Positions 4,969 through 59,263 of a stretch of DNA of 64,000 nucleotides are shown piece by piece. The stretch is from Thermococcus sp. P6 (lineage in GTDB: Archaea > Methanobacteriota_B > Thermococci > Thermococcales > Thermococcaceae), in the NCBI RefSeq assembly GCF_002214525.1, contig NZ_CP015104.1, forward strand, positions 124,001-188,000, written 5' to 3'. The notes beneath the pieces are model-generated. The model searched no databases and had not been told where the DNA came from. It saw nothing but the letters and a program-made list of their open reading frames with translations. A program made the translations under genes and the position numbers. Positions within the stretch are counted from its first letter, which is position 1; each line of letters opens with the position of its first letter.

Positions 4969-5015
4969 ACCTTCACCATTGGAGGGGCTGGAGTTAAAGA
5001 GATGGGGTGATGCTC

Positions 5016-6020
5016 ATGGCCGGGAATGGGGTGAGAAAGATCCTGCCGGCGGATGTGAAGAGGAAAATCATCGTTAAGGATGAAAACGCCGAAACGAATC
5101 CAAAGTGGGGGTTTCAACCGGAAGAGAGGCCCATGGAAATGCACATGCAGTTCGGGATAATAAACCTCGATAAACCCCCGGGCCCAACGAGTCACGAGGT
5201 CGTTGCGTGGGTCAAGAGGCTCCTCAACCTGAGTAAGGCCGGCCACGGAGGGACCCTTGATCCAAAGGTCAGCGGTATCCTCCCGGTTGCCCTGGAAAGG
5301 GCCACGAGGGTCGTTCAGGCCCTGCTTCCCGCGGGTAAGGAGTACGTTGCCCTGATGCACCTTCATGACGACGTTCCCGAGGGCAAAATCCGGGCCGTTA
5401 TGAAGGAGTTCGAGGGCGAGATAATCCAGAGGCCCCCGCTGAGAAGCGCCGTCAAGAGGCGGCTCAGGACGAGGAGGGTTTACTACATTGAGATACTTGA
5501 GGTCGACAACCGGGACGTTCTCTTCCGGGTTGGCGTCGAGGCCGGGACGTACATCCGATCGCTCATCCATCACATCGGCCTTGCCCTCGGCGTGGGTGCC
5601 CACATGGCCGAGCTCCGTCGTACCAGAAGCGGCCCCTTCAAAGAGGACGAAACCCTCGTGACGCTGCACGATCTCGTGGACTACTACCACTTCTGGAAAG
5701 ACGACGGTATAGAGGACTACTTCCGCAGGGCCATCCAGCCCATGGAGAAGGCCGTGGAGCACCTCCCCAAGGTGTGGATAAGGGACTCGGCCGTTTCTGC
5801 CGTGACCCACGGTGCGGATCTGGCGGTTCCTGGCATCGTTAAACTCCACAGGAGCATCAGAAGGGGCGACCTCGTTGCAGTTATGACGCTCAAGGACGAG
5901 CTCGTTGCCCTCGGAAAGGCCACCATGGGGAGCGAAGAGATGCTTAATAAGAGCAGGGGGATAGCGGTCGACGTTGAGAAGGTCTTCATGCCGAGGGACT
6001 GGTATCCGAAGATGTGGTGA
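5016..6020 (+). CDS. cbf5: tRNA/rRNA pseudouridine synthase Cbf5
   Basis: Catalytic subunit of H/ACA ribonucleoprotein, converting uridine to pseudouridine in rRNA, and also tRNA U55 in archaea. It shows the TruB-family motif with catalytic aspartate (GHGGTLDPKVSG, about residues 76-87), the KEYVALMHLH strand and a C-terminal PUA domain from about residue 250 (KVWIRDSAVSAVTHGADL). It is nearly co-linear with remembered Pyrococcus furiosus Cbf5. ATG at 5016 is chosen because ggggtga lies 5 bases before it; GTG 5007 and ATG 5010 are within that site. The downstream methyltransferase begins 4 bases after the stop. Confidence 0.96.
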   Translation: MAGNGVRKILPADVKRKIIVKDENAETNPKWGFQPEERPMEMHMQFGIINLDKPPGPTSHEVVAWVKRLLNLSKAGHGGTLDPKVSGILPVALERATRVVQALLPAGKEYVALMHLHDDVPEGKIRAVMKEFEGEIIQRPPLRSAVKRRLRTRRVYYIEILEVDNRDVLFRVGVEAGTYIRSLIHHIGLALGVGAHMAELRRTRSGPFKEDETLVTLHDLVDYYHFWKDDGIEDYFRRAIQPMEKAVEHLPKVWIRDSAVSAVTHGADLAVPGIVKLHRSIRRGDLVAVMTLKDELVALGKATMGSEEMLNKSRGIAVDVEKVFMPRDWYPKMW

Positions 6021-6024
6021 TTCC

Positions 6025-6612
6025 ATGGGGCACTACTACTCGGAGAACCCCGACGTTCCCATCAGGGAGAAGATCGTGGAGGTGTACCTCAGGGGTTGCA
6101 GATTTAAGTTCGTTACCGCAAGCGGTGTCTTCTCCTTTGGAAAGCTCGACAGGGGAACGGAGTTGCTGATAGAGAACATGGTGCTCAAAAATGGCTGGCG
6201 TGTTCTCGATCTGGGATGCGGTTACGGGGCCATCGGAGTGGTTGCCTCACGCTTCGTTGGGAGCGTGGTAATGACCGACGTTAACAGAAGGGCCCTGAGC
6301 GTGGCGAGGAAAAACTTAAAAATCAACGGCGTTAAAAACGCCGAGGTTCGGTGGGGAAACCTTTATGAACCCGTTAAGGGCGAGAAGTTCGACTCGATAA
6401 TCACCAACCCCCCGGTGCACGCGGGAAAGGACGTGTTGAGGGAAATAGTTATAAACGCTCCCCGGCATCTCAACGATGGAGGCCTCCTGCAGCTCGTAAT
6501 AAAAACAAAGCAGGGGGCAAAGTATATTAAGGCCCTGATGGACGGGCACTTCAACGAGGTGAGAGAGCTGGCCCGGGGGAGTGGTTACCGCGTGTATGCC
6601 GGGATCGCCTAG
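6025..6612 (+). CDS. RsmC-like class I SAM methyltransferase
   Basis: The 195-residue protein is a compact Rossmann methyltransferase. The SAM loop is VLDLGCGYGAIG (about 59-70), the acidic ribose-binding strand is VMTDVN, and the catalytic motif is NPPVHAG (about 120-126), the NPPxH form of the RsmC/MJ0882 group that methylates exocyclic amines of rRNA guanines. The target here is unknown. ATG 6025 follows gatgtggtgattcc, 4 bases after cbf5, pointing to co-expression with the pseudouridine synthase. Its last five codons, including the TAG, lie inside the downstream tRNA-Ser gene. Confidence 0.85.
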   Translation: MGHYYSENPDVPIREKIVEVYLRGCRFKFVTASGVFSFGKLDRGTELLIENMVLKNGWRVLDLGCGYGAIGVVASRFVGSVVMTDVNRRALSVARKNLKINGVKNAEVRWGNLYEPVKGEKFDSIITNPPVHAGKDVLREIVINAPRHLNDGGLLQLVIKTKQGAKYIKALMDGHFNEVRELARGSGYRVYAGIA

Positions 6613-6684
6613 CCTGGGATGGCGCGGGCCTTGAGAGCCCGTGTCCGTATGGACACCGGGGTTCAAATCCCCGTCCCGGCGCCA
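6598..6684 (+). tRNA. tRNA-Ser (anticodon UGA)
   Basis: 87-base class II tRNA. Acceptor strands GCCGGGA (6598-6604) and TCCCGGC (6674-6680) pair perfectly; anticodon stem CGGGC/GCCCG holds loop CTTGAGA, giving UGA; a long variable arm (GTCC-GTAT-GGAC) is diagnostic of serine; the T arm is CGGGG-TTCAAAT-CCCCG. CCA is encoded at 6682-6684. The first 15 bases are also the end of the methyltransferase coding sequence. Confidence 0.95.
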
Positions 6685-6720: not shown

Positions 6721-7167
6721 ATGGCTGACTTTAGACATATCGTCCGTGTAGCTGGAGTGGATCTGGACGGGAATAAGCAACTGAGATGGGCTCTTACAGG
6801 CATCAGGGGAATGGGGATAAACTTTACCACTATGGTGCTCAGGACGGCTGGCATAGACCCCTACATGAAGACCGGCTATCTGACCGACGAGCAGGTCAAA
6901 ACCATAGAGAAGATCCTCGAGGATCCGGTGGGCCACGGCGTACCCGCCTGGGCGGTCAACAGGCCGAAAGACTACGAGACCGGAAGGGACATGCACCTTA
7001 CAACGGCCAAGCTCGTCATGGCATGGCGCGAGGATGTGAACAGGCTCAGGAGAATACGCGCCTACAGGGGCATAAGGCACGAGCTTGGACTGCCAGTTAG
7101 GGGCCAGAGAACCAGATCGAACTTCAGACATGGTTCCACGGTAGGCGTTAGAAGAAGAAAGAAGTGA
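6721..7167 (+). CDS. rps13: Ribosomal protein uS13
   Basis: Small-subunit head protein of 148 residues contacting the P-site tRNA and 5S/uL5 bridge. The N-terminus [15 protein letters not shown] and the C-terminal basic tail ([21 protein letters not shown]-like) are typical for archaeal uS13. ATG 6721 is preceded by caaggaggtgtgttcgta; a GTG at 6712 is a possible alternative. It starts the uS13-uS4-uS11-Rpo3 block 36 bases after the tRNA. Confidence 0.95.
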
Positions 7168-8136: not shown

Positions 8137-8163
8137 CCCATAACTTCTTTTTTGGTGATGCCG

Positions 8164-8949
8164 ATGGAGCCAAAATTCCGGATTCTCGAGAAAAAGGGGG
8201 ACTCGATCAAGTTCATCGTGGAGGGAATTGACGTAACCTTCGCCAACGCCCTGAGGAGGACCATCCTCTCCGAGGTCCCCACCTTTGCCGTCGACGAGGT
8301 CGAGTTCTTCGAGAACGATTCGGCCCTCTTCGATGAGATAATAGCCCACCGACTGGCCATGATTCCCCTCACCACGCCCCCTGACAGGTTCTCGCTCGAT
8401 TCCCTCGAGCTTGATGAAACCACCGTCACTCTGTCCCTTCAGGCAGAGGGGCCGGGGATGGTTTACTCGGGCGACCTGAGGAGCGACGATCCGGACGTCA
8501 AACCGGCCAACCCGGACATACCGATAGTCAAGCTCGCGGAGGGCCAGAAGCTTACCCTCAACGCCCATGCAAGGCTCGGCCGCGGTAAGGACCACGCCAA
8601 GTGGCAGCCGGGTTTCGTCTACTACAAGTACCTCACGAGGCTACACGTTGATAAGGAAGTTCCGGACTGGAAGGAACTCGAAGAGCTCGGGAAGAGGCGC
8701 GGTCTTCCAGTTGAGGAAAGGGAAGGAGAGTTGATCATCACGACCACCAAGGCCTTCTACCTTCCGGCGAAATTCGAAGCCTACGAAGGGAAGGGCATAA
8801 GTGAGGAGATAGTGCCCGGAGCGTTCGTGTTTACGGTCGAGACCAACGGGGAAATTCCGGTTGAGGAAACGGTAAGCTTAGCACTCAAAATCCTGATGAG
8901 GAAGAGCGATAGATTTATAAGCGAACTCCATAAATTAGCGTCCGACTGA
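8164..8949 (+). CDS. rpo3: RNA polymerase subunit Rpo3 (subunit D)
   Basis: Assembly subunit of archaeal RNA polymerase, homologous to Rpb3 and bacterial alpha; it dimerises with Rpo11 and nucleates the enzyme. The 261-residue chain carries the alpha-type dimerisation motif [19 protein letters not shown]. No cysteine is present, so the Fe-S cluster domain seen in many archaeal D subunits is absent, as is known for Thermococcales. ATG 8164 follows ttggtgatgccg; ATG 8158 is an alternative. It closes the uS13-uS4-uS11 block and is followed after one base by a tRNA. Confidence 0.95.
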
Positions 8950-8950
8950 C

Positions 8951-9038
8951 GCGGGGGTTGCCGAGCCTGGCCAAAGGCGCGGGATTCAGGGTCCCGTCCC
9001 GTAGGGGTTCCGGGGTTCAAATCCCCGCCCCCGCACCA
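8951..9038 (+). tRNA. tRNA-Leu (anticodon CAG)
   Basis: 88-base class II tRNA with acceptor GCGGGGG pairing to CCCCCGC, anticodon stem CGGGA/TCCCG and loop TTCAGGG giving CAG, a long variable arm, T arm CGGGG-TTCAAAT-CCCCG, and encoded CCA at 9036-9038. The gene begins one base after the rpo3 stop, so it must be excised from an rpo3 read-through transcript or have a promoter inside rpo3 (a TATA-like gatttataagc lies near 8912). Confidence 0.96.
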
Positions 9039-10576: not shown

Positions 10577-10654
10577 GGGGCCGTGGGGTAGCTTGGTCTA
10601 TCCTCCCGGCTTGGGGTGCCGGAGACCCGGGTTCAAATCCCGGCGGCCCCACCA
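10577..10654 (+). tRNA. tRNA-Pro (anticodon GGG)
   Basis: 78-base tRNA. Acceptor GGGGCCG pairs with CGGCCCC; anticodon stem CCGGC/GCCGG holds loop TTGGGGT, giving GGG; the T arm is CCGGG-TTCAAAT-CCCGG, and CCA is encoded at 10652-10654. It sits in the 116-base gap between rpo10 and rpo6, so tRNA processing must cut any transcript linking the two polymerase subunit genes. Confidence 0.96.
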
Positions 10655-39387: not shown

Positions 39388-39464
39388 CCCTTAAAAACCC
39401 GGCCTCGAATCCCGACCGAAGTGGCGGGGAAGACCCGCGGGATGTTCCCGTAAGGGAGAACCAC
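39388..39464 (+). promoter_or_regulatory. eL15 promoter and structured leader
   Basis: TATA-like ccttaaaaaccc at about 39388-39399 predicts a transcript start near 39420 and a leader of about 65 bases. It begins with a compact fold: GTGG (39421-39424) can pair with CCAC (39461-39464), enclosing hairpin CGGG-GAAGA-CCCG (39425-39437) and a second hairpin, either CGGGA/TCCCG (39438-39450) or GTTCCC with GGG-A-GAAC around a GTAA tetraloop (39444-39461). Alternative pairings of the same bases suit an autoregulated ribosomal protein leader. Confidence 0.45.
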
Positions 39465-39485
39465 AAACGAGGAAGGGGTGAAAGT

Positions 39486-40153: not shown

Positions 40154-40606
40154 ATGGCCGGGATAGGGGCCCATCACGTCAGGATCACAACCTTCATTCA
40201 CGCCACCGAGGACGAGGAAAAGGTTCTCGAGGCCCTGGAAACGTTCATCCCAGAGGGGATAGAGGACGATGTAAACGTTGAGGTGGAGGAAACCACGGGC
40301 TTCTTCGGGAACCCCATCAAGGTCGTCAACGTTGAGATAAAGCGAAGCAAAGCTGTTAGAAAGTTCCTTGATTATTTCAAGGAGCTTCTGGACGGGGAGA
40401 GCAGGAGGTACATCCTCGATAACCTTGAGGAGAAGGTCGACGAAGAGGGGACCCTTTACGTCCGCTTCAACAAGCAGAAGGCCTACCTCGGCGAGCCGGA
40501 GATCGATGAAGGTGGCGACACGATTCAGGTGAAGATAAAGGTAAAGGCCTTCCCGATGAGGAAGGAGAGCGTTGTGAAGGCTCTGAGGGAGTGGCTGGAA
40601 GGATGA
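40154..40606 (+). CDS. COG1325-type RNA-binding protein, exosome-linked
   Basis: 150-residue alpha/beta protein (HHVRITTFIHATEDEEKVLEAL at the start; [32 protein letters not shown] at the end) of the archaeal family predicted from gene neighbourhood to be an exosome-associated RNA-binding protein. It overlaps the RNase P subunit gene by four bases (ATGA), so the two are translationally coupled, consistent with a role in stable RNA processing. Direct biochemical function is not established. Confidence 0.82.
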   Translation: MAGIGAHHVRITTFIHATEDEEKVLEALETFIPEGIEDDVNVEVEETTGFFGNPIKVVNVEIKRSKAVRKFLDYFKELLDGESRRYILDNLEEKVDEEGTLYVRFNKQKAYLGEPEIDEGGDTIQVKIKVKAFPMRKESVVKALREWLEG

Positions 40607-41334
40607 GCCCCGAAAAGGGTGGAGAGACCGAAATCGAGGAGCTCTCATTCTCGAGGGATCACTTCGTCGAGATGGACGTGAGGAGCGAGGAAGCTTACGA
40701 GCTGGCCCGTGAGTGGTTCGATGAAGTCGTTTTCACGAGGGAGCTCGTCCTTGAAGGCACCCCCGACTGGTCCCCGCTTAAAGAGGAACTCAGGGAACTC
40801 CGGGAGAGGTACGGCAGGGTTGCCCTGCTCGTGGTCACCCGGAAGCCGGCGCTTATAAGGGAGGTTAAAAAGCGTATCCATGGTGTTTTGATCTACGTTC
40901 AGGGCGGGAACATGAGGGTCAACCGCTTTGCACTCGAGAGCGGAGTCGATGGACTCATAAGTCCGTGGCTGGGGAGAAAGGACCCCGGCTTCGACCACGT
41001 TCTGGCAGGGATAGCCTCGAGAAGGAAAGTTGCGATAGGTTTCTCCCTCTCGCCCCTCCTGAGGGCCGGGCCATATGAGAGGGCCCAGATACTGCGCTTC
41101 ATGACAAAAACATGGCAGCTCGTGGACAAGTACTCGGTTCCGAGGTTCATCACGAGCTCCGCAGCGAGCAGGTGGGAGGTTCGTTCTCCGCGGGATCTTA
41201 TGAGTCTCGGGATAAGCATCGGGATGGAGATCCCTCAGGCCAAGGCGAGTCTTAACTTCTATCCCCGGAGCGTTCTCTCAAAATTAAAGGGGAGGGTTCA
41301 CCCCTCCAGAGCGGGGAAGTGCTCGGGCTCGTAA
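40603..41334 (+). CDS. rnp3: RNase P protein subunit Rnp3 (Rpp30 homologue)
   Basis: 243-residue TIM-barrel-like subunit of archaeal RNase P, which trims 5' ends of pre-tRNA; it works with Pop5. Sequence features match Rpp30/PHP-like proteins: [63 protein letters not shown] and [24 protein letters not shown]. The N-terminal 20 residues are a short extension. ATG 40603 is used; GTG 40591 is also in frame. Its last 37 bases overlap the convergent trpB2. Confidence 0.92.
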
Positions 41335-43832: not shown

Positions 43833-44243
43833 ATGAGGCTGATCTCCCTCCCCCTGTCCCTGCTCGTGGTCCTGTCCTTCCTCTTCCCGTGGTTCCGCGT
43901 TGACGGGGAGAGGATAACGTTCATCGAAGTCCTTAGGAGCACATTATTCGGATCCGATGGCCTGACCTTTTCCCTTTCGTGGCTCAATCCAGACAGCAAC
44001 GGTGGGATAATAGCGTTCATCCTTTTCCTCATCGCACTGCTGCTCATACTACTCGGGATCCTCTACGGTCTCAGAGGCGGAAGGACGGGGCCCGCGTTAG
44101 GCGTCCTTGGAATGCTGATCTTCACCCTCGTTCTGTGGTACATCCACGGTCCCGGATACCTGAAGGTAATAGACAAAGGCTACGTAATGGCCTTTCTGAG
44201 CTTTACGGCGGGTCTACTGCTTGCCGGCGGTGAGAAGCTCTAA
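43833..44243 (+). CDS. Four-helix membrane protein, function unknown
   Basis: 136 residues with about four hydrophobic segments: LPLSLLVVLSFLFPWF (N-terminal), GIIAFILFLIALLLILLGIL, GPALGVLGMLIFTLVLWYI and VMAFLSFTAGLLLAGG. No catalytic motif. The start 12 bases after nikR (site gagggggtggtcga) makes an operon likely, so a nickel- or metal-linked role is possible but unproven. The end overlaps the convergent rqcH by four bases. Confidence 0.65.
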   Translation: MRLISLPLSLLVVLSFLFPWFRVDGERITFIEVLRSTLFGSDGLTFSLSWLNPDSNGGIIAFILFLIALLLILLGILYGLRGGRTGPALGVLGMLIFTLVLWYIHGPGYLKVIDKGYVMAFLSFTAGLLLAGGEKL

Positions 44244-46189
44244 CCAACAACCTCGACTATGTCCGCACCTCCCGGTGGAAGGACCGCCATTATGTCCTCT
44301 TCCCTCACGCTGTAGCCCCATCCCTCGATTATTCTTTTGATCCTTTTCACCAGCTCGCTCTTCTTCAGCGAACCGGGCCTGATTACGATGTACCTGTCGG
44401 TATGGGCCTTCATGGCCTCGACCGGTGCGCAGGTAACGTATTCCTCACCCTCGTAGTTGATCACCCCAACGGCGAGCTTCAGGGGGAGGCCGTGAAGCCA
44501 GTTCCTCTTACCGTAGACCATGAAGGCACCTTTTCCAAGGTACTCGCCGCTCGGGGTCTGTTTTGTCACCTGCTCCGGCTTCGCCCAGTAAGCGTCCCCG
44601 CTGTAAAGCCCCCTGCTCCATGCCCTGCTCATAGAAAGGGCGAACTGACAGGCCTCGAACATGGTCTTTTCTCCCGCTTTCTCCCCTTCCTTGATGACCA
44701 CGTGGGGTGCACCGTAAAAGTCGGCGTGGCAGTAGCGGTCGTTTTCGCTCATGTACTTCTTGATGAGCATCTCATTGGTGCTCGCGTCCTTGCCCGCGAG
44801 GACGAGGAAACCCTCGCTCGAAACGAACCAGCGGAACTTCTCGAACCACTTCCTCTTTCTCCGCTCCAACTTCTTAACGTGGACCTCCTTCTTCATCTCC
44901 TCCTCGATGAGCCTCCCGACTTCCTCGAGCTTTCTCTTCGTATCCTCGCAGGCCTTCAGCGCGCCCTCGTACTTGCGCCGGAACTTCTTGGCTTCCTCGT
45001 AGTAGAGCCCGGCGTTCTCGCCCACGCTTCTGCCGAGGTAGAGCCTGACGGGTTTCCCTTCGATCTCAACCTTCACCGCCCTGCTCCCGGGATCGATGGC
45101 CCTGACCATGAGGGCCACCCTGTTGCCGGCCCTTTTGCCCTCCTCTATCCTCTTCCTGAAGCCCTCCCATCCGAGCCTCTCCACCGCCTTCCCGAACTCC
45201 CTTAGAAGGTTCTCGACGAGGGTGTAGTTGGCGTAGATAAGATCCCCTATCTCCTGATTGGTCTCCGCGGCTTTTCTAAACCCTTCGAGCATCTCCTCCT
45301 GTTTTTTGAGGGTCATTAAAAGGGCCCTTTTCTGGGCTTCAAGCTTTTTTGTAGCTTCCATTTTGGCCTTCTCGACGGTTATCTTTCCGAAGTACTCATC
45401 GAGGGCCTCACTGAAGGTTTTGAAGTAGCGCTTTTCAAGGCCTTCGTAGATCCTCAGCTCTATGGGAACGACATCGTACATCCTCCCCTCCCTGAAGACC
45501 ACGTTGGGCCTCGGCTCGTCGTTGAAGGTCTCCAGCATGGCATCGTAGACCCTCATCATGTCCTCATCGCTGAGTTCGCTCACCGGAACGGTCTTCTCAA
45601 ACCCGGCCCGGAGGGAGATTTCCTCGGCGTACATGCCCCCCATGTTGAGTTTCCTTGCGAGGGCACGCACGAGCTCCAGCTCCTCCTCCCGCATCAGTTC
45701 GATAAACTCCTCGCGCGTCACCTCGAGCGGGTTCCTCCTCGCCGGCGGGAAGCGGTATTCCGCCTTCGGCTTTATGGCCCTGTTCCTGTATTCCTCGTAG
45801 CGCAGGGCCGCTATTATCCTGTTATCGGAATCAACGAGTATCACGTTTCCCCTCCTGAAGAGCTCGCCTATGAGGGTATAATCGCCAACGCGGATCTTGA
45901 CTATCCTGTCGAAGCCGTGTTGCTCTATGGCATCCACGAAGCCACCGCTGAGGTGCTTTCTGAGGAGCATCGTGAAGCTCGAGGGGCTCTTTGGAGCCTC
46001 CTTTATGTAGGTCGTCAGGTGAAACCTCTTACCCGCCTGAAGGATCAGGTCGGCCCTGCCCTCCTTCGTGCGGAGCTTTATCCTGATCTCATCGCCGTCG
46101 TGGTAAACCTTGTCAACCCTCGAGCCGACCAGCCACTGCAGTTCCCTCACGACGTAGCGTATATCGACGCTGCTCATTTCCTCCTTCAT
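44240..46189 (-). CDS. rqcH: RqcH/NEMF-family ribosome quality-control protein
   Basis: 649-residue NFACT protein that binds 60S/50S subunits with stalled peptidyl-tRNA and, in bacteria and eukaryotes, adds C-terminal tails to the stuck chain. The N-terminal NFACT-N domain is clear (DIRYVVRELQWLVGSRVDKVYHD, LILQAGKRFHLT), then HhH-like helices, a long coiled coil (about 270-450, EKAKMEATKKLEAQKRALL, EEMKKEVHVKKLERRKRK) and the NFACT-R (DUF814) domain with NEMLIKKYM and YGAPHVVIKEGEKAG. ATG 46189 follows ggtgaagaa; ATG 46177 is an alternative. Confidence 0.92.
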   Translation of the reverse strand: MKEEMSSVDIRYVVRELQWLVGSRVDKVYHDGDEIRIKLRTKEGRADLILQAGKRFHLTTYIKEAPKSPSSFTMLLRKHLSGGFVDAIEQHGFDRIVKIRVGDYTLIGELFRRGNVILVDSDNRIIAALRYEEYRNRAIKPKAEYRFPPARRNPLEVTREEFIELMREEELELVRALARKLNMGGMYAEEISLRAGFEKTVPVSELSDEDMMRVYDAMLETFNDEPRPNVVFREGRMYDVVPIELRIYEGLEKRYFKTFSEALDEYFGKITVEKAKMEATKKLEAQKRALLMTLKKQEEMLEGFRKAAETNQEIGDLIYANYTLVENLLREFGKAVERLGWEGFRKRIEEGKRAGNRVALMVRAIDPGSRAVKVEIEGKPVRLYLGRSVGENAGLYYEEAKKFRRKYEGALKACEDTKRKLEEVGRLIEEEMKKEVHVKKLERRKRKWFEKFRWFVSSEGFLVLAGKDASTNEMLIKKYMSENDRYCHADFYGAPHVVIKEGEKAGEKTMFEACQFALSMSRAWSRGLYSGDAYWAKPEQVTKQTPSGEYLGKGAFMVYGKRNWLHGLPLKLAVGVINYEGEEYVTCAPVEAMKAHTDRYIVIRPGSLKKSELVKRIKRIIEGWGYSVREEDIMAVLPPGGADIVEVVG

Positions 46190-51174: not shown

Positions 51175-51649
51175 GGTATAGAAAAATTCATCCTATAAAA
51201 AGATTTCTGATGGGCTCTTTCGACAAAAGACGATTTACTCGACCGTTAAACTATTCCATCCCCGGTTTCATCATTTTTCCAAGATACCTTAAAAGAACCA
51301 GGGGAGGGATTGGATTTATGTCAGTAGAAAAAGGGCAGTTAGCCGGTGGTGACCAAAAGGTTCGGGAGCAGTTCCATTAACTATTTAACCCGAAAAACCA
51401 AGGGTTGTACGGTGCCCGATGACTGGAACGAGAGTGAGCTGAGCGGTGATGATCGACTTCTCGCTGAGGGCACCCCCGTACATCATAATCCACTGAAGAC
51501 GTTTTATGTTCTTCAAAGTATAGAAAATTATGGATGTACAGGCATGTTTTCACCCCAAAATTTCCATAGGTTCGCTCTTTTCATTAAAAATTTCCGTATA
51601 TAACTTTTTGTGCAGAATCAACCGTTTTCCACTCCGTTCTGGCGAAAGG
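51175..51649. other. Long gap between transporter and gdhA
   Basis: This 475-base stretch, part of the 595-base interval between the divergent transporter and gdhA, contains the transporter promoter at its left end, the C/D box RNA in the middle, and an A+T-rich run (51500-51600) ahead of the gdhA promoter. Apart from these I see no protein gene that can be supported. Confidence 0.6.
51411..51474 (+). ncRNA. C/D box guide RNA for 2'-O-methylation
   Basis: All parts of an archaeal C/D sRNA are present in order: terminal stem GGTGCC (51411-51416), box C ending GATGA (51418-51422), guide ctggaacgagagtgag (51423-51438), box D' CTGA (51439-51442), spacer gcg, box C' GTGATGA (51446-51452), guide tcgacttctcg (51453-51463), box D CTGA (51464-51467), and terminal stem GGCACC (51469-51474). 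A TATA-like ctatttaacc (51381-51390) lies about 25 bases upstream. By the D+5 rule the two guides pick one C and one A in targets complementary to them; the target RNAs were not identified. Confidence 0.88.
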
Positions 51650-57306: not shown

Positions 57307-57310
57307 GGTG

Positions 57311-59263
57311 ATGGCTTTGATAAGAAGAGAGACGTTCGTTGATGACGTTTTGAAGGACATAAAGGCAATTATAAGACAGATGGTTCCAAGGGAAGCCGGA
57401 ATAACGGAAGTTGAGTTCGAGGGACCCGAGCTGGTCATATACGTCAGGAACCCCGACGCGATAATGAGGGACGAGAACCTGATAAGGAACCTCGCCAAGG
57501 TTCTCAAAAAGCGCATAAGCGTTCGTCCCGATCCGGATGTTCTTCTGCCACCGGAGAAGGCGGAGGAGCTGATAAGGGAGATAGTTCCGCCCGAGGCTGA
57601 GATAAGCAACATAAGCTTTGATCCATCGGTTGGCGAGGTCCTCATAGAGGCCAGAAAACCGGGGCTGGTGATAGGAAAGAACGGCGAAACACTCAGGCTC
57701 ATAACCCAGAGGGTCCACTGGGCCCCCAGAGTGGTTAGGACCCCACCCCTGCAGAGCCAGACGATATACTCGATAAGGCAGATACTTCAGGCGGAGGCCA
57801 AAGACCGCAGGAAGTTTCTCAGGAACGTTGGAAGAAACATCTACCGCAAGCCCGAGTTGAAGAGCGATTGGATCAGGATAACCGGTCTCGGCGGTTTCAG
57901 GGAGGTCGGCAGGAGTGCCCTTCTCCTCCAGACCAACGAAAGCTACGTGCTTGTCGATTTCGGCGTCAACGTAGCGGCCCTCAGGGATCCCAAAAAGGCC
58001 TTTCCGCACTTTGATGCTCCGGAGTTCAGGTACGTCCTCGACGCCGGCCTGCTGGATGCGGTGGTTATAACCCACGCCCACCTCGACCACTCAGGAATGC
58101 TCCCCTACCTGTTCCGCTACAAGCTCTTTGATGGGCCCGTTTACGCCACTCCACCAACGAGGGACCTCATGGTTCTCCTGCAGCAGGACTTCATCGAGAT
58201 ACAGAAGATGAACGGCGTAGAACCCCTTTACCGGCCGAGGGACATCAAGGATGTAATAAAGCACACGATAACCCTCGATTACGGGGAGGTTCGTGATATA
58301 GCACCCGACATAAGGCTCACCCTCCACAACGCGGGCCACATCCTCGGCTCCTCGATAGTCCACCTCCACATAGGCAACGGGCTCCACAACATAGCCATAA
58401 CCGGTGATTTCAAGTTCATCCCGACGAGGCTCTTCGAGCCGGCCGTGAACAGGTTCCCGCGCCTCGAGACTCTCGTGATGGAGTCCACCTACGGTGGAAG
58501 CAACGACTATCAGATGCCCCGCGAGGAGGCCGAGAAGAGGCTGATAGAGGTCATCCACCAGACCATCAGGAGGGGAGGCAAGGTCCTGATCCCGGCCATG
58601 GCCGTTGGGAGGGCTCAGGAGATAATGATGGTCCTCGAGGAGTACGCCCGCGTCGGTGGAATAGACGTGCCCGTGTACCTCGACGGGATGATATGGGAGG
58701 CCACGGCCATACACACCGCCTACCCGGAGTACCTCAGCAGGCACCTGCGCGAGCAGATATTCCACGAGGGTTACAACCCCTTCCTGAACCCGATATTCAA
58801 GCCCGTCGCCAACAGCAGGGAGAGGCAGGATATAATAGACTCGGGTGAGCCCGCGATAATCGTGGCCACCTCCGGCATGCTCGTGGGAGGGCCCAGCGTG
58901 GAGTACTTCAAGCAACTCGCCCCGGATCCGAAGAACAGCATGGTGTTCGTCAGCTATCAGGCCGAGGGAACCCTCGGAAGGCAGGTCCAGAGGGGCATGA
59001 GGGAGATTCCGCTGGTCGGGGAGGACGGAAAGACGGAAGTCGTCAACGTCAACATGGAGGTTCACACCATCGACGGCTTTTCCGGTCACGCCGACAGAAG
59101 GGAGCTCATCAGCTACGTCGCCCGCCTGAGGCCAAAACCCGAGAGGGTCATAACCGTCCACGGGGAGTCCCACAAGTGCCTCGATCTCTCAACGAGCATC
59201 CACAAGAAGTTCGGAATCTCAACGAGGGCCCCGAACAACCTCGACGCCATAAGGCTCAAGTAA
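57311..59263 (+). CDS. fttA: Transcription termination nuclease FttA (aCPSF1)
   Basis: 650-residue beta-CASP metallo-beta-lactamase that cleaves nascent RNA and terminates transcription in archaea. Two KH RNA-binding domains occupy residues 1-145 (with GLVIGKNGETLRLI), then the lactamase core with THAHLDHSG (motif 2), HNAGHILGSS, ITGDFKF and the beta-CASP segment ending SGHADRRELI and VHGESHKC. ATG 57311 follows gagtgaggtg. The psmB-fttA pair is conserved in archaea. Confidence 0.96.
   Translation: MALIRRETFVDDVLKDIKAIIRQMVPREAGITEVEFEGPELVIYVRNPDAIMRDENLIRNLAKVLKKRISVRPDPDVLLPPEKAEELIREIVPPEAEISNISFDPSVGEVLIEARKPGLVIGKNGETLRLITQRVHWAPRVVRTPPLQSQTIYSIRQILQAEAKDRRKFLRNVGRNIYRKPELKSDWIRITGLGGFREVGRSALLLQTNESYVLVDFGVNVAALRDPKKAFPHFDAPEFRYVLDAGLLDAVVITHAHLDHSGMLPYLFRYKLFDGPVYATPPTRDLMVLLQQDFIEIQKMNGVEPLYRPRDIKDVIKHTITLDYGEVRDIAPDIRLTLHNAGHILGSSIVHLHIGNGLHNIAITGDFKFIPTRLFEPAVNRFPRLETLVMESTYGGSNDYQMPREEAEKRLIEVIHQTIRRGGKVLIPAMAVGRAQEIMMVLEEYARVGGIDVPVYLDGMIWEATAIHTAYPEYLSRHLREQIFHEGYNPFLNPIFKPVANSRERQDIIDSGEPAIIVATSGMLVGGPSVEYFKQLAPDPKNSMVFVSYQAEGTLGRQVQRGMREIPLVGEDGKTEVVNVNMEVHTIDGFSGHADRRELISYVARLRPKPERVITVHGESHKCLDLSTSIHKKFGISTRAPNNLDAIRLK

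Follow-up and report, generated by a model that had tools for sequence, protein, structure and literature searches.

Protein and tRNA genes are known to overlap in the compact organelle genomes of animal mitochondria, and the tRNAs in overlaps of the cox1/tRNA-Lys type are not known to have separate promoters. In the Armadillidium example, tRNA processing is set against mRNA integrity on a single transcript (as related in PMC8124441), a tension that would also arise at the locus presented here. In bacteria, selC, which encodes tRNA-Sec, overlaps selB (Mukai 2021, PMC8124441). As these cases are presented in that source, the upstream gene continues in frame into the tRNA gene and takes its C-terminal codons from it, the stop of the Dyella and Luteibacter (Gammaproteobacteria) selB lies inside the tRNA at nucleotides 46-48, and some lineages have lost the overlap while keeping a tRNA remnant; a model involving non-stop mRNA is also proposed there. 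In Thermococcus kodakarensis, it is common for BRE/TATA promoters in the 3' part of an ORF to serve the next gene; of the internal starts close to ORF ends, 90 were taken as the primary start of the following gene, rpoN being among the examples (Jaeger 2014, PMC4247193).

The locus studied here, in which a methyltransferase (MTase) gene ends inside the gene for tRNA-Ser(TGA), is an archaeal variant of these known tRNA-ORF overlaps; what is new is its family-wide occurrence, the three predicted promoters embedded in it and a single traceable uncoupling. It shares with selB/selC the in-frame reading of a tRNA gene as C-terminal codons, and differs from the cases covered in that source in that the tRNA is an archaeal tRNA-Ser, the stop is U13-A14-G15, the overlap extends through a whole family and conserved promoter motifs lie in the upstream coding sequence. 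Only tRNA nucleotides 1-15 are shared, unlike the alphaproteobacterial selB/selC form, where the whole tRNA is nested in the ORF. The placement of BRE/TATA motifs in the 3' part of an ORF recalls the T. kodakarensis internal starts, yet here the following gene is a tRNA that overlaps the ORF, and the account of internal starts in PMC4247193 describes neither this locus nor such an overlap. No description of the locus was found in the open-access literature searched (supplements excluded). Its value is that of a natural experiment in gene overlap, in which one stretch of DNA would act as coding sequence, promoter and tRNA.

A preliminary description of the window (the whole 64,000-nt stretch of Thermococcus sp. 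P6 DNA that was analysed) had claimed that tRNA-Ser overlaps the last five codons of the MTase gene. The coordinates proved right in every respect, whether judged by ARAGORN, Rfam or the ORF frame (Table 1). The RF00005 match covers 6598-6681 (50.6 bits; gathering score 29), and the MTase ORF ends with GCC GGG ATC GCC TAG, in frame with tRNA nucleotide 1. An earlier MTase stop upstream of 6598 had been considered; no in-frame stop was found before 6612, and the overlap stands. It lies in the acceptor strand and the start of the D arm of the tRNA and, given that the conserved domain stops at residue 191, only residues 192-195 (AGIA) and the stop codon fall within tRNA sequence.

Table 1. Features at the MTase/tRNA-Ser locus, in window positions.
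Feature	Positions	Strand	Evidence and remarks
cbf5	5007-6020	+	490.6 bits, cut-off 242; 4-nt gap to MTase
MTase gene, 195 aa, end inside tRNA	6025-6612	+	PF05175, 155 bits; phmmer match to MJ0882
Predicted BRE/TATA box AAAAACTTAAAAATC	6310-6324	+	288 nt 5' of tRNA; predicted start near 6346
Predicted BRE/TATA box AAATAGTTATAAACG	6443-6457	+	155 nt 5' of tRNA; predicted start near 6479
Predicted BRE/TATA box CAAAGTATATTAAGG	6518-6532	+	80 nt 5' of tRNA; predicted start near 6554
tRNA-Ser(TGA), encoded CCA	6598-6684	+	ARAGORN; Rfam RF00005
15-nt overlap, codons A-G-I-A-stop = tRNA nucleotides 1-15	6598-6612	+	conserved in 84/89 genomes
MTase stop TAG = tRNA U13 A14 G15	6610-6612	+	T13 in 83/83 overlapped, C13 in 5/5 separated
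rpsM (ribosomal protein uS13)	6721-7167	+	203.9 bits, cut-off 159; 36 nt 3' of tRNA

The Ser-TGA gene is present in a single copy among the 44 tRNA genes found in the genome. TAG occupies nucleotides 13-15 in many of these 44 tRNAs, so a gene that enters a tRNA in frame 1 meets a stop by default. Ten open frames of at least 45 codons enter a tRNA in this genome, and the MTase alone has a Pfam match, the search of Pfam families with the nine others returning none; a profile-supported coding sequence enters a tRNA on the same strand in one of the 44.

The MTase is an MTS-domain, MJ0882-like protein. The Pfam domain PF05175 spans residues 27-191 of 195 (155.3 bits, cut-off 23), and its best solved relative is 1dus (MJ0882), matched by phmmer over residues 5-191 at 7.6e-49. 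The name "RsmC-like" given to the gene earlier was loose: RsmC, the 16S rRNA m2G1207 methyltransferase, is rejected as its identity, with the NCBIfam equivalog NF007023 scoring 86 bits against a cut-off of 295.

Conservation of the overlap in relatives, proposed as a check in the preliminary description, was assessed in 94 Thermococcaceae genomes. The 3' end of the MTase gene was recovered in 89, and the other five, holding paralogues only, were excluded. The same 15-nt overlap, identical in length and frame, is found in 84 of the 89, with an AGIA C-terminus in all 84. Hence, as in selB/selC, an in-frame stop within a same-strand tRNA is conserved in relatives, and sharing on this scale places the overlap beyond chance. 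Protein length is exactly 195 aa in 86 of 86 full-length relatives, four of them with separated genes. The tRNA nucleotide counts cover 83 of the 84 overlapped genomes, one contig ending inside the tRNA. Ten of nineteen further contig loci are from Thermococcales (nine overlapped, one separated), and these were left uncounted because at least some duplicate counted assemblies.

Of the surroundings, rpsM is the next gene in 88 of the 89 loci, and cbf5 adjoins the MTase on the upstream side in at least 35, many loci having been read over 600 nt upstream only. Genome G024, which we take to be T. kodakarensis, has its own TTTATAAA box upstream of the MTase in place of an adjacent cbf5.

The preliminary description had argued that the tRNA, if not processed from a read-through transcript, needs a promoter inside the coding sequence, and this branch is now well supported, with three conserved boxes lying there. 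A 15-position BRE/TATA matrix was trained on the upstream regions of the genome's other tRNAs only. Among the 42 of 43 such tRNAs that were scored (one of two tRNA-Met genes was left out), 34 have a clear TATA site, the motif starting at -35 to -60 and mostly at about -40. When tRNA-Ser(TGA) was scanned with the matrix, no TATA motif was found at -35 to -60, and the best upstream sites, at -288, -241, -155 and -80, are all in the MTase. A sigma-70 scan, uninformative for archaea, was set aside.

Promoter statistics were computed on 82 of the 84 overlapped genomes, since two overlapped MTases and one separated MTase are cut by a contig end. The sites at -288, -155 and -80 score 5 bits or more in 79, 82 and 78 of the 82, respectively, with mean scores of 17.0, 12.2 and 8.1 bits. 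Synonymous shuffles, in which codons were permuted while each protein and its codon usage were kept (60 shuffles; 200 in an earlier version), gave means of -2.2, 0.4 and 2.2 at these positions, and the highest shuffled mean anywhere in the gene was 4.6. With 41 representatives below 90% identity, the means are 15.8, 12.2 and 8.3 against a shuffle maximum of 4.4. In the full set, the three boxes exceed the shuffle controls with z from 10 to 28; given that three low-scoring positions of the rpsM control (80 genomes) still present z from 6 to 13, the argument relies on the mean score, not on z alone, and no rpsM mean is above -3.3. A BRE+TATA motif conserved beyond coding constraint is found, then, within the ORF.

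Codon choice points the same way. Synonymous choice is most skewed in the MTase at a leucine codon of the -288 box, which is TTA in 37 of 38 Leu rows. Of the top 18 among 145 testable codon columns, in a list read by eye, 14 are in a box, beside one (-159) or in the tRNA codons. Counting against the promoter reading, the -288 box overlies residues partly conserved in outgroups (Asn97 in 26/26). The -241 site is lineage-specific, occurring in 18 of 82 genomes. Also on the contrary side, the -80 box falls below 5 bits in four of the 82 overlapped genomes; the three of these inspected (G050, G055 and G068) retain the boxes at -155 and -288. At the level of sequence it is thus shown that the MTase lacks a stop codon upstream of the tRNA and uses the tRNA's UAG, and that its coding sequence carries three predicted BRE/TATA boxes kept at synonymous sites.

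We consider it likely that the overlap is old and has been locked in by promoters inside the MTase coding sequence, with tRNA-Ser heading the rpsM ribosomal-protein/RNA-polymerase cluster. A competing view, that the TATA-like boxes are incidental and tRNA-Ser comes solely from processed long upstream transcripts, could appeal to the 8 of 42 scored tRNAs without their own box, some of which are second genes of tandem pairs. It is nevertheless highly improbable, as the boxes exceed the synonymous-shuffle controls by the z values above, and as separation of the genes was followed by their decay in the MTase and their retention in the spacer.

This separation is seen in the remaining five of the 89 genomes, all from one genus (g3, presumably Pyrococcus). 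Four have an 81-nt spacer between the genes and an AGKK C-terminus, and one has a 158-nt spacer and AGRL. In keeping with embedded promoters, the separated MTases have lost all three boxes, every position scoring 3.7 bits or less in 5/5 genomes. Copies survive in the spacer: all five spacers contain the former -80 box (15.0 bits), now at -48/-49, and four contain the former -155 box (12.5 bits), now at -87. In the 158-nt spacer, which holds the former -80 box at -49, a different TATA box (18.8 bits) is present at -156. The nearer spacer box is thereby close to the usual TATA distance of tRNAs.

The origin of the spacer was examined by alignment. The spacers of G005 and G009 score 51-73 and 49-60 against the MTase tails of four overlapped Pyrococcus, where the best of 500 letter shuffles is 32, and the same two spacers score 16-20, within shuffle range, against the tails of the separated MTases themselves. 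Since these latter tails are unlike the spacer, duplication from them is something we infer rather than see. The spacer looks like a fossil MTase tail in which mainly the promoters survive, and separation probably proceeded by partial duplication of the MTase tail, which would leave a spacer with promoter copies. Ahead of their new stop the separated MTases retain Y-A-G, which would fit a first copy that had kept tRNA nucleotides 1-6.

The beneficiary of the boxes could also be rpsM, the tRNA being a passenger in the rpsM leader. The start of rpsM lies 36 nt past the tRNA, a T-rich terminator was searched for between 6598 and rpsM and none was found, and in T. kodakarensis the 5'-UTR of TK0306 contains a tRNA-Lys (PMC4247193). 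We regard this as rather unlikely, given that the -80 box of the separated clade moved to -48/-49, near the usual tRNA distance; besides, it would alter the beneficiary and not the architecture. Under the reading we prefer, in which the boxes lock in the overlap, rpsM is probably served by the same promoters as tRNA-Ser.

The uncoupled lineage also points to protein and tRNA residues that look like compromises. MTase residue 143, encoded by the ATA of TATAAA, is Ile in 84/84 overlapped genomes, Arg in 5/5 separated ones and Ile in 0/26 outgroup proteins. At residue 144, all 84 overlapped genomes have Asn; the separated ones have Glu (four) or Gly (one), and the outgroups Glu in 13/26 and Asn in 1/26. 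It therefore looks as if the MTase reverted towards its family after its coding sequence was freed of the promoter. At tRNA nucleotide 13, T (83/83 overlapped tRNAs called by ARAGORN) is replaced by C (5/5 separated), and the stop is thereby gone. The C13 version of the motif is confined to those five genes across the 94 genomes, while two further sites that share this D-arm motif, one Ser-GCT-like and one Cys-like, keep T13 in four of the five separated genomes; in the fifth, which is incomplete, no match for these other sites was found. Nucleotide 22 is G in these Pyrococcus tRNAs (sequences read by eye), so U13.G22 became C13-G22. Other tRNAs retain U13 without any overlap, however, and the change from U13 to C13 may hence be drift. 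From these alignments, the arrangement appears to tax the MTase at Ile143-Asn144 and possibly the tRNA at U13. It serves as a warning that promoters of the next gene can bend a protein-family consensus.

Uncoupling is seen once in the sampled genomes, in the Pyrococcus lineage; with a single event, the linked changes are correlated on one branch, which makes them suggestive but unreplicated. The overlap is taken as the earlier state because a coding tail can decay to spacer. The reverse polarity is disfavoured, since a tail common to MJ0882 and all outgroups is unlikely to have arisen from a spacer. The separated MTases (four of the five, the fifth being truncated) group as a single clade, with support of 99/97, in the ingroup MTase tree. 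Rooting with very distant outgroups puts the separated genomes at the base and requires two changes; a tree of MTase residues 1-135 alone likewise requires two. These residues still group the separated clade with two other Pyrococcus (90/94), which disfavours xenologous replacement of the whole MTase in that clade. A preliminary tree that included cbf5 (7 rows, none from a separated genome) was not used.

Outside the Thermococcaceae, the comparison took in 19 outgroup loci from the same class. Nine belong to a sister family (f3, ten genomes, of which one with a weak match was left out), and in all nine the order is cbf5-MTase-tRNA-Ser(GGA)-rpsM and the last G of the MTase TAG is G1 of the tRNA, a 1-nt overlap. 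No tRNA was called in the stretch read at the other ten, nor was one found within 700 nt of the MTase stop at seven more distant archaeal loci (L016-L022). The tRNA between MTase and rpsM is thus Ser(GGA) in the sister family (L159-L167) and Ser(TGA) in the Thermococcaceae, which at a conserved site would reflect either an anticodon shift or a swap. The sister-family tRNA does not encode its CCA, and rpsM apparently starts very near its 3' end.

As for expression, the embedded boxes would drive tRNA-Ser and the rpsM operon: RNA polymerase would start about 36 nt past the start of each motif, at the positions given in Table 1, and read tRNA-Ser and rpsM. In T. kodakarensis, TATA boxes lie at a median of 23 bp before the transcription start (PMC4247193). 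If the boxes act in this manner, most tRNA-Ser would come from transcripts that never encode the whole MTase, and, as the search between tRNA and rpsM revealed no T-rich terminator, the tRNA would be excised by RNase P and tRNase Z, with the rpsM mRNA remaining. Folded together with its predicted leader, the tRNA takes a different minimum-energy structure (z = -0.84) from the one obtained for it alone (z = -2.57), a difference to which we attach no weight.

A transcript begun upstream of the MTase would have to hold at least part of the tRNA, and on a read-through transcript the outcome would depend on order, giving MTase mRNA if the ribosome comes first and a tRNA precursor if RNase P does. 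RNase P cleavage of such a transcript at 6598 would leave an MTase message without a stop. Given that the MTase stop is inside the tRNA and that no T-rich terminator was found before rpsM, a non-stop message can soundly be predicted for any transcript starting upstream of the MTase. The production of non-stop mRNA by archaeal RNase P becomes, in this way, testable at one defined, family-wide locus.

The overlap might, on another account, be a regulatory switch, kept since tRNA-Ser maturation destroys the MTase stop, so that the two outputs are alternatives and MTase level is tied to processing capacity. Its presence in 84 of 89 Thermococcaceae agrees with this, as do the sister family, which severs the stop in another way (TAG ends on G1 of tRNA-Ser(GGA), 9/9 loci read), the proposal of the same model for selB/selC (PMC8124441) and the presence of RqcH and an RNase P subunit in the genome. 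We nonetheless judge it unlikely: the overlap is dispensable in five Pyrococcus genomes, embedded promoters would supply the tRNA independently of the MTase transcript, and gene abutment together with constraint accounts for the conservation with no need of regulation. A broader version, which we hold to be quite unlikely, would make RNase P the off-switch of the MTase in both archaeal families, every read-through transcript yielding either tRNA or full MTase; aPelota/RqcH-type rescue would clear the non-stop ribosomes, and the overlap would be kept for the coupling while embedded promoters secure basal tRNA.

The preliminary description had also placed an RNase P subunit and RqcH in the same window, and both are real: RNase P p30 is at 40591-41334, about 34 kb from the overlap, and RqcH/NFACT at 44240-46189, about 38 kb from it. 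Neither provides evidence of a link to the overlap. The window also contains a gene for an FttA/aCPSF1-type termination factor (57308-59263; PF17214, PF10996), and its Rfam matches include an eL15 ribosomal protein leader (39424-39467) and the C/D box sRNA sR58 (51415-51469).

Two other tRNAs of the window are placed near the locus. tRNA-Leu(CAG), within the region 8152-9038, starts 1 nt past the stop of the upstream ORF, presumably rpoD, and its TATA box ATAGATTTATAAGCG (18.6 bits) starts 42 nt upstream, inside that coding sequence. Here again a tRNA promoter is housed in the preceding gene, this time with no overlap of the two genes. By its position, we take rpoN to belong to the same gene cluster as the MTase/tRNA-Ser locus. 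tRNA-Pro(GGG), at 10577-10654 in the same ribosomal-protein/RNA-polymerase cluster, likewise has no TATA motif at the usual distance and is probably co-transcribed.
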